A stretch of 32,355 nucleotides of DNA, from NCBI GenBank assembly GCA_903917755.1, contig CAIXBT010000321.1:1-32355 (forward strand). The letters are read 5' to 3'. This stretch comes from an uncultured Bacteroidota bacterium. Its GTDB lineage: Bacteria > Bacteroidota > Bacteroidia > Chitinophagales > LD1. Position 1 is the stretch's first letter; every line of letters begins with the position of its first letter. This document shows positions 30,184 through 32,355 of the stretch, piece by piece. The notes under the pieces were generated by a model. That model was given only the letters and a program-made list of their open reading frames with translations, was not told the origin of the DNA and ran no database searches. A program made the position numbers and the translations under genes.

Positions 30184-31095
30184 TCAAAATAAACCCTCTA
30201 CGCTCAGGTATCTTTCTCCTGTGTCATAAGAGAATGTAAGCACTTTTGAGCCTTTGGGGATCTCGGGTAATTTTTTTGCTACTGCTGCCAATGATGCACC
30301 GGAAGAAACACCAACGAATATTCCTTCTTTCTTTGCCGCCCGTTGTGCATATTCATATGCTTCCTCTTTGGTGACCTGGATCGTACCGTCCAGAATATCT
30401 ACATGAAGATTGACCGGAATGAAGCCTGCACCAATACCCTGTATAGGATGCGGACCGGGAGCACCGCCGCTGATGACAGGAGATGCAGCGGGTTCGACAG
30501 CGAAAACTTTCAGATCGGGAAATTTAGCTTTCAGTACTTCTGCCACTCCTGTAATGTGGCCGCCTGTACCTACCCCTGTGATCAGGTAATCGAGACCATC
30601 AGGAAAATCGGCCAATATTTCCTGCGCAGTAGTCCGTTTATGTGCCTCTATGTTTGCAGGATTGTTAAACTGCTGAGGCACCCATGAGTGAGGTGTAGAT
30701 GCAGCGAGCTCGTTGGCTTTTTCTATCGCCCCTTTCATGCCTTTCTCTCTTGGTGTCAGTTCGAACTCTGCTCCATACACCGCCATAAGCCTTCTGCGCT
30801 CGATACTCATACTTTCCGGCATCACCAGAATGATCCTATACCCCTTTACCGCGGCCACTATAGCGAGTCCTATTCCTGTGTTGCCGGATGTCGGCTCGAT
30901 GATCACTGAGTCTTTGTTGAGCAGCCCTTTCTGCTCTGCATCTTCTACCATAGCGAGTGCTATGCGGTCTTTGATAGATGCTCCGGGGTTGGCGCGTTCG
31001 AGTTTGACATATACTTCATGGTCATTGCCGAATAGCCTGTTGACGCGTACATGCGGTGTATTTCCTATGGTCTGCAAAATGTTTTGTGCCTTCAT
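30184..31095 (-). CDS. cysK: Cysteine synthase A (O-acetylserine sulfhydrylase)
   Basis: [58 protein letters not shown]. Confidence 0.95.
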
Positions 31096-31133: not shown

Positions 31134-31943
31134 TTAAATCATAAATTCAATGACGTTTTTCATCTCAGACCTGTCTCGGATCTTGACCTCGCTTTTCTGA
31201 TACACGACCGAAAATGCCGGCACACTTTCAGTAAGCCAGACATTGCCGCCTATCACAGAGTCATGGCCTATCGTGGTCTTGCCGCCCAGAATGGTACTGC
31301 CCGAATAGATGATCACATTGTCCTGAATGGTGGGGTGGCGTTTGACGGGAGCATTGCCTTTCTCTACTGTCAGTGCACCGAGGGTGACGCCCTGATATAT
31401 CTTGACATTAGCGCCGATGATCGTGGTCTCACCTATCACTATACCTGTGCCATGATCGATGAAGAAAGATGCTCCTATCTGCGCACCCGGGTGAATGTCG
31501 ATCCCTGTGCGGCTATGTGCATATTCAGATAGTATCCTTGGCAAAATGACGACTCCATTATTATACAAAATATGGGCGAGCCGGTGAATGGCTATGGCGT
31601 AGAAACCCGGATAGGCGATCACGACCTCTTCGAGTGAATTGGCTGCAGGATCGAAGGTGAGGATGGCCTCGGCATCCTTGATGAGCAGATCGAAGGTATC
31701 ATTCAACTCATCAAAGAAAATGTCAGATATAGAAGGGGCGGAACTGGATGCATCCAGCAGCGCTTCGAGTTTAGCCCGGAGCAGCGGCTCTCTTTGGCTG
31801 AGCAGATCTACTGTCAGCTCGCTACCCCAGCGCACAGGAAAGAGAAAATTTATTATCTCATCTGCGAAACTGTGTGCATGTATCATCTGTGCATAGCCGT
31901 TCGGGAAGCGTTTCTGGAAAGATCTTATTTTGTCTAAAAGCAT
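31134..31943 (-). CDS. cysE: Serine O-acetyltransferase (hexapeptide-repeat)
   Basis: LSEYAHSRTGIDIHPGAQIGASFFIDHGTGIVIGETTIIGANVKIYQGVTLGAL...KRHPTIQDNVIIYSGSTILGG. Confidence 0.95.
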   Translation of the reverse strand: MLLDKIRSFQKRFPNGYAQMIHAHSFADEIINFLFPVRWGSELTVDLLSQREPLLRAKLEALLDASSSAPSISDIFFDELNDTFDLLIKDAEAILTFDPAANSLEEVVIAYPGFYAIAIHRLAHILYNNGVVILPRILSEYAHSRTGIDIHPGAQIGASFFIDHGTGIVIGETTIIGANVKIYQGVTLGALTVEKGNAPVKRHPTIQDNVIIYSGSTILGGKTTIGHDSVIGGNVWLTESVPAFSVVYQKSEVKIRDRSEMKNVIEFMI

Positions 31944-31968: not shown

Positions 31969-32000
31969 AAAAAAAGCCCCTCAGGGTGACTGAAGGGCTT
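31969..32000 (-). terminator. Intrinsic terminator/attenuator in the cysE-cysK leader
   Basis: Reverse strand: AAGCCCTTCAG-TCACC-CTGAGGGGCTT (11-bp stem, one G-U) running into TTTTTTT; lies before, not after, the operon. Confidence 0.92.
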
Positions 32001-32047
32001 AGAATATATTTTTTTGTTGTGATATACTACATGGCAAATCCCTTCAG
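31990..32047 (-). promoter_or_regulatory. Candidate antiterminator: CTGAAGGG (32047->32040) pairs with CCCTTCAG (31997->31990)
   Basis: Exact 8-nt complementarity between a segment inside the leader ORF and the 5' arm of the terminator; mutually exclusive with the terminator. Confidence 0.75.
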
Positions 32048-32098
32048 CGGCGCTGACTCAGCACAACAACAAACTGCAAAAGGATGATTTCTGTTCAT
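32027..32098 (-). CDS. Cysteine leader peptide (MNRNHPFAVCCCAESAPLKGFAM)
   Basis: Manual translation: ATG AAC AGA AAT CAT CCT TTT GCA GTT TGT TGT TGT GCT GAG TCA GCG CCG CTG AAG GGA TTT GCC ATG TAG; three tandem Cys codons upstream of cysteine biosynthesis genes, with a terminator in between. Confidence 0.82.
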   Translation of the reverse strand: MNRNHPFAVCCCAESAPLKGFAM

Positions 32099-32218
32099 GA
32101 TCTTATACGAAAATAACAATATTTGGAAAACCAAAAGGATATTAGTGTTTTATAATTTATTTTAATGGATGAAGAGTGATCAATAATTATCTACCTTAGC
32201 TCTAATCAAAATATCTAT

Positions 32219-32355
32219 ATGAAAGCATTATATGCAATTTTATTTGTTTTTGTTTCTGTCACATTCTCATTCGCTCAGGCACAACAAAAGGGAGTGACTG
32301 TCAACAACAAAGGAGCTGCTGCCAAGAGCAGCAAGGGAGGCGGTGTAGAAGCAAA
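32219..32355 (+). CDS. Secreted protein, 3'-truncated by the window edge
   Basis: MKALYAILFVFVSVTFSFAQAQQKGVTVNNKGAAAKSSKGGGVEA...: clean signal peptide, open to the end of the window. Confidence 0.6.
   Translation, partial: MKALYAILFVFVSVTFSFAQAQQKGVTVNNKGAAAKSSKGGGVEA

Follow-up and report, generated by a model that had tools for sequence, protein, structure and literature searches.

A predicted cysteine-responsive transcription attenuator ahead of cysE-cysK and related leaders across Bacteroidota

Results

The leader ahead of the cysE-cysK genes of an uncultured Bacteroidota bacterium is very probably a cysteine-responsive, ribosome-mediated transcription attenuator. It lies in a 32,355-nucleotide stretch of DNA that was analysed as a whole (the window). 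Devices of the same kind appear to be widespread in Bacteroidota and seemingly undescribed, and this wider system is a more interesting result than the leader of the window. Bacteroidota are dominant in many gut and soil communities; to our knowledge, the control of amino-acid synthesis in this phylum is little known.

Architecture of the leader and proposed mechanism

The elements of the leader lie on the minus strand. A candidate −33 promoter element, TTTGG (positions 32131–32135), agrees with the Bacteroidota consensus (PMC7366714) and is followed by a −7 box of the TAnnTTTG type, TATTTTCG (32108–32115), with five of six consensus letters. The ATG of a 23-codon leader ORF (uORF), MNRNHPFAVCCCAESAPLKGFAM with its stop codon (32027–32098), begins 9 nt further on, and the ORF contains three adjacent Cys codons, TGT TGT TGT (32063–32071), the proposed stall sites. 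Codons L18-K19-G20 of this ORF hold the octamer CTGAAGGG (32047→32040), which on direct reading is exactly complementary to CCCTTCAG (31997→31990). The latter lies within the 5′ arm of an 11-bp intrinsic terminator hairpin, AAGCCCTTCAG-TCACC-CTGAGGGGCTT (31974–32000), which has a T7 tract (31969–31975). The octamer is included in the proposed antiterminator 5′ strand, GCTGAAGGG (32040–32048), and the terminator 5′ arm doubles as the antiterminator 3′ strand.

The terminator sits between the predicted promoter and two genes whose products, as named by NCBIfam, make cysteine. The first regulated gene encodes a cysE-like serine O-acetyltransferase (31134–31943, minus strand; EPS_EpsC above cut-off, TIGR01172 cysE below cut-off), and its start lies 25 nt past the T tract, clear of the predicted hairpins. 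The second gene of the presumed operon is cysK, for cysteine synthase A (30184–31095, minus strand; TIGR01139 cysK above cut-off). Because the neighbouring gene across the leader is divergent (32219–32353, plus strand, running off the contig end), the terminator serves no known upstream minus-strand transcript.

We propose that transcription would start ~5 nt ahead of the uORF and that a ribosome would then begin the leader peptide. With Cys-tRNA scarce, the ribosome would stall at the Cys codons (32071–32063) with its leading edge short of 32048, leaving GCTGAAGGG to pair with the terminator 5′ arm as that arm is made; the terminator would then not form and cysE-cysK would be transcribed. With Cys-tRNA plentiful, the ribosome would reach the stop codon (32029–32027) and cover CTGAAGGG, upon which the terminator would fold and transcription would end. 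A ribosome at the stop codon would have a footprint of about 32047–32017, which takes in the octamer. The transcription start, uORF translation, stalling, read-through and cysteine response are what we infer from this arrangement.

Pairing energies and simulated ribosome positions

Pairing with the terminator 5′ arm was tested for the sequence between the last Cys codon and the terminator. In the window, the uORF tail and this arm form a duplex of −16.0 kcal/mol, compared with a mean of −7.2 kcal/mol in dinucleotide shuffles (p=0.003, the lowest value that 300 shuffles allow). The complement described in an earlier note on this DNA is exact on direct reading, as are the positions it gave for both octamers and for a third element, a 5-bp hairpin formed by the 13-nt inverted repeat TCAGC-GCC-GCTGA within the uORF (32056→32044, minus strand). 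Both competing structures fold better than shuffles: −17.1 kcal/mol (z −3.7) for the terminator and −15.2 kcal/mol (z −3.1) for the antiterminator.

At equilibrium, the terminator is the stabler fold of the full RNA in nearly all ribosome states; therefore, as far as these models go, the switch must be kinetic, the choice being made during transcription. Since equilibrium folding of the full leader says little on switching, we folded pre-terminator states instead, taking the RNA up to the terminator loop, with the 3′ arm not yet made, and placing a ribosome at varied codons with an assumed leading edge ~12 nt beyond the start of the A-site codon. For the window, the upstream pairing probability of the terminator 5′ arm was 1.0 for a ribosome placed at either the first or the last Cys codon, and 0.0 for one placed at the stop codon. 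In folding with these assumed footprints, then, a stall at the Cys codons leaves the antiterminator free and the stop-codon position masks it. Most homologues behave like the window; the outcome is less clear-cut for some, among them L020 and L053.

The earlier note had gone further and proposed a switch of three states, in which the 5-bp hairpin (32044–32056) protects the antiterminator strand and keeps it closed until a stalled ribosome opens the hairpin. We regard such a working third element as unlikely. In an alignment of the genus, the hairpin is fully kept in register in four of five members (L006 breaks it), 92% of its cells pair and one pair is changed on both sides, and it shows up in the fold predicted for RNA with the terminator in place. 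Against this, its covariation counts in the same alignment are not clearly above shuffles, its 3′ arm is already constrained by the antiterminator, and no counterpart is evident in other genera, although these retain the remaining elements. At −4.1 kcal/mol it is also weak beside both the antiterminator (−15.2 kcal/mol) and an overlapping upstream hairpin, GUGCUG-AGU-CAGCGC (−6.9 kcal/mol), which its 5′ arm prefers, and the predicted fold just before the terminator forms contains the antiterminator without the protector, even in the absence of a ribosome. The hairpin would lie out of reach of a ribosome that waits at the first Cys codon, and hiding of the antiterminator at plentiful cysteine is explained more simply by a ribosome at the stop codon. 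The stalling at Cys codons and the antiterminator/terminator choice put forward in the earlier note are supported and the opening of a protector by the stalled ribosome is not; the hairpin is dispensable for the mechanism and may tune the switch within the genus.

A candidate superattenuator helix between the Cys codons and post-stop sequence (UUGUUGUG with CACAACAA), present in the untranslated full-length fold, was discarded because relatives inspected by eye do not retain it.

Conservation and covariation

To compare leaders, CysE orthologues were collected from 61 related genomes and the regions upstream were read. At 22 of the 23 informative loci of the window's family (24 loci minus one cut by a contig edge), cysE is preceded at the same place by a terminator and, ahead of that, by a uORF in which Cys codons form a run or cluster. 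The genome with the cut locus has a matching leader at the edge of another contig (L208), and at L002 an assembly gap falls within the terminator. The exception, L008, is a cysE-bearing family member without the leader; together with several more distant loci that also lack it (L025–L028), it counts against the attenuator reading. A mechanical scan for a uORF plus terminator over 536 kb of fetched loci gave matches almost only at the leader sites, and zero in shuffled sequence.

The leader peptides share little besides the Cys run. The terminator arm differs across genera, and the uORF tail changes to match it: the pair is CUGAAGGG/CCCUUCAG in g1, GCGCAG/CUGUGU in g2 and GAAAGGG/CCCUUUC in Runella, where it is located past the stop codon. 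The check that the earlier note had suggested, namely whether the complement is retained or covaries among homologous leaders, thus speaks strongly for the note's view that the coding sequence doubles as a strand of the switch. Pair counts at the genus level are uninformative because most antiterminator pairs never vary there. In several g3 leaders of the family the simple duplex is not above shuffles; by eye these have an internal hairpin that could join both strands, and their antiterminator may be built differently.

Another 34 leaders, belonging to other genera and to other families, gave p<0.05 in 29 cases (Fisher 3e-30), a figure that overstates independence because the leaders are partly related. 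Their tails pair with their own terminators at a mean of −13.4 kcal/mol and with swapped terminators at −9.1 kcal/mol (Wilcoxon P=2e-10, subject to the same limit); these leaders are not a blind sample, as the search model includes the sequence of both elements, but it does not score their pairing. The last Cys codon is mostly separated from the antiterminator by 8–15 nt, a distance that fits the need for a stalled ribosome to leave the antiterminator only just uncovered. By every comparative test available, the leader of the window appears to be a genuine cysteine attenuator.

Promoter spacing

A −7 box (TAnnTTTG-like, at least 5/6 matches) lies 3–9 nt ahead of the uORF ATG in 39 of 60 leaders (65%), compared with 10.5% in shuffles, and the commonest spacing is 4 or 5 nt. 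In Flavobacterium johnsoniae, transcription starts 4–5 nt past the −7 element at probable promoters, and leaders exceed 10 nt in 87% of predicted transcripts (PMC6847099). Given this start distance and the observed spacing, many of the uORFs should begin at or near the RNA 5′ end and so be leaderless or nearly so. The 9-nt spacing in the window places the predicted start at about 32103–32102, with a predicted leader of ~5 nt.

Alternative explanations

Any single sequence can hold short ORFs and 8-nt complements by chance, and the device could in principle be a chance ORF before an ordinary terminator. Conservation at 22 of 23 informative loci, the empty scan of shuffled sequence, the divergent gene on the other side and the pairing in further leaders leave hardly any room for such a coincidence. 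Another alternative is translational attenuation, in which the uORF would govern how ribosomes reach the start of cysE; this mechanism is the one described for mycobacterial poly-Cys leaders (PMC9031893, PMC13236596). Here, homologues retain a strong terminator followed by a T tract, its 5′ arm covaries with the complementary uORF tail, and the cysE start lies beyond the predicted hairpins, which together make this mechanism very improbable for the window.

Much the same low probability attaches to arrest of the ribosome by the nascent leader peptide, or to sensing of something different from Cys-tRNA, for example redox state with the Cys-rich peptide as its target. The presence of peroxiredoxin genes under poly-Cys leaders in some relatives would fit a redox signal, but the sequence of the peptide is not conserved outside the Cys run, and other copies of the device carry Tyr or Trp runs matched to the pathway they precede, which points to codon supply as the signal. 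We therefore retain transcription attenuation by ribosome stalling at Cys codons as the preferred reading.

Relation to known attenuators

Like the classical attenuators of the trp, his and phe type, the leader combines an ORF rich in codons for the product, mutually exclusive antiterminator and intrinsic terminator, and a biosynthetic operon. Unlike them, it would sense cysteine, has no Shine-Dalgarno-led start and begins close to the promoter, and a conserved pause or protector hairpin was not found. Rfam models (riboswitch, T-box and amino-acid leaders) gave no match at gathering score in the window or seven related loci; at a permissive E-value there were sub-threshold matches only, the best being Phe_leader at 27.7 bits versus 55, which we do not take as membership.

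The closest relatives described so far are a Rhodobacterales cysS leader and the mycobacterial poly-Cys uORFs. A Cys-codon attenuator with a terminator was proposed for uORFC-8-2 ahead of cysS in Rhodobacterales (PMC8632094), and it shares with the present leader adjacent Cys codons in a uORF, an intrinsic terminator and proposed read-through at Cys-tRNA shortage. As described there, it is confined to alpha-proteobacteria, precedes cysS and has two Cys codons within a stem, whereas the Bacteroidota leaders have 2–6 Cys codons (elsewhere up to 9) and precede cysE-cysK and sulfur-assimilation genes. Poly-Cys leaders of Actinobacteria were first noted without conserved terminators (PMC1262725), and leaderless poly-Cys uORFs known from mycobacteria (Canestrari et al. 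2020) are reported to be translational (PMC9031893, PMC13236596). They resemble the present leaders in being poly-Cys and located before cysteine genes and, as predicted for the present leaders, in a (near-)leaderless start and in attenuation by ribosome speed at the Cys codons; in contrast to that translational type without a conserved terminator, the Bacteroidota leaders have a conserved intrinsic terminator and a covarying antiterminator. For Bacteroidota, two transcriptome papers give no more than general hints of leader-peptide attenuation (PMC7366714, PMC9723704). No description of a Bacteroidota cysteine attenuator was found in the open-licence literature, where absence is not proof of novelty.

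Distribution across Bacteroidota

Two covariance models, R1 built from the family and a broader R2, were run over whole genomes. Matches were obtained in 104 of 299 genomes of the order (E<=0.05), 95 of 396 genomes of the class (E<=0.001) and 17 of 300 genomes of the phylum (E<=1e-4), eight of these 17 outside the class; the counts take in leaders for other amino acids and some false matches (e.g. L173, L179 and L250). At the inspected loci, poly-Cys uORFs lie ahead of genes for cysteine synthase, sulfite/nitrite-reductase-like proteins, OAH/OAS sulfhydrylase, CysH and serine acetyltransferase, and also ahead of peroxiredoxin and RimK-like ligase genes, with downstream genes named by NCBIfam for representatives and by sequence resemblance for the remainder. 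It seems reasonably probable that Bacteroidota have an undescribed, phylum-wide system, with the window as one copy, of (near-)leaderless, non-Shine-Dalgarno uORFs that exert terminator-based attenuation by Cys, Tyr, Trp or branched-chain amino acids, tie much of sulfur assimilation to Cys-tRNA and in a number of genomes are stacked as two independent poly-Cys units. The recurrent covarying Cys attenuator predicts a regulon made up of cysE, cysK, sulfite reductase, cysH, OAH/OAS sulfhydrylase and peroxiredoxin operons. It also provides a natural setting in which to study the tightness of coupling between transcription and translation in bacteria without Shine-Dalgarno initiation.

The leader of the window is a single unit. 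Two model matches in series before one operon occur at 16 loci (L150, L154, L156, L158, L169, L170, L174, L178, L183, L209, L210, L218, L226, L228, L231 and L233), at 14 of which both uORFs have adjacent Cys codons. For the 12 tandem loci with two recognised terminators, the tails pair on average at −13.7 kcal/mol with their own terminator and at −10.2 kcal/mol with the neighbour's (P=2e-4), and a −7 box lies within 3–9 nt of five of the 12 first units and one of the 12 second units. This suggests that the pairs are two attenuators read serially from one promoter. The Salmonella mgtCBR operon, with two serial leader ORFs, is a precedent (PMC3641672); in the Bacteroidota pairs, by comparison, a Cys run is found in both units and each unit is equipped with a separate terminator. 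Such loci allow one to ask why a cell would place two sensors for one amino acid one after the other.

Individual loci extend the range of downstream genes. Poly-Cys leaders precede peroxiredoxin genes at L157, L160, L161, L170, L174, L184, L187 and L231, followed at L160, L161 and L187 by cysteine-synthase-like or PAPS-reductase genes, and a RimK-like ATP-grasp ligase gene at L155, L171 and L211. Cys-containing leaders with terminators are found ahead of acyl-CoA-thioesterase-like (hotdog) genes at L180, L215, L219 and L230, an unexpected target for a cysteine gauge. Leaders with Tyr runs (e.g. MKSNRIYYYYYYTPAQERYR) and terminators precede phenylalanine 4-monooxygenase, a tyrosine-making enzyme, at L166, L195 and L198 and are candidate tyrosine attenuators. 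Trp-run leaders (e.g. MNLMNKHWWWHSNSSRGL) lie ahead of trpE- or trpB-like genes at L185, L201, L227, L232 and L234, and a Leu/Val/Ile-rich uORF, MNPFNINILGLLLAVVIISVTKRERPFF, ahead of an ilvE-like gene at L214.

The window's own genome contains a second poly-Cys leader with a terminator (L190, G000:C11:2823-2965), MKNILIHTTMCCCSHRQGLGYSWT if a GTG start is used, whose antiterminator duplex is not above shuffles (p 0.31). This leader and its counterpart in the same genus, L189, precede a DUF4395 membrane protein.
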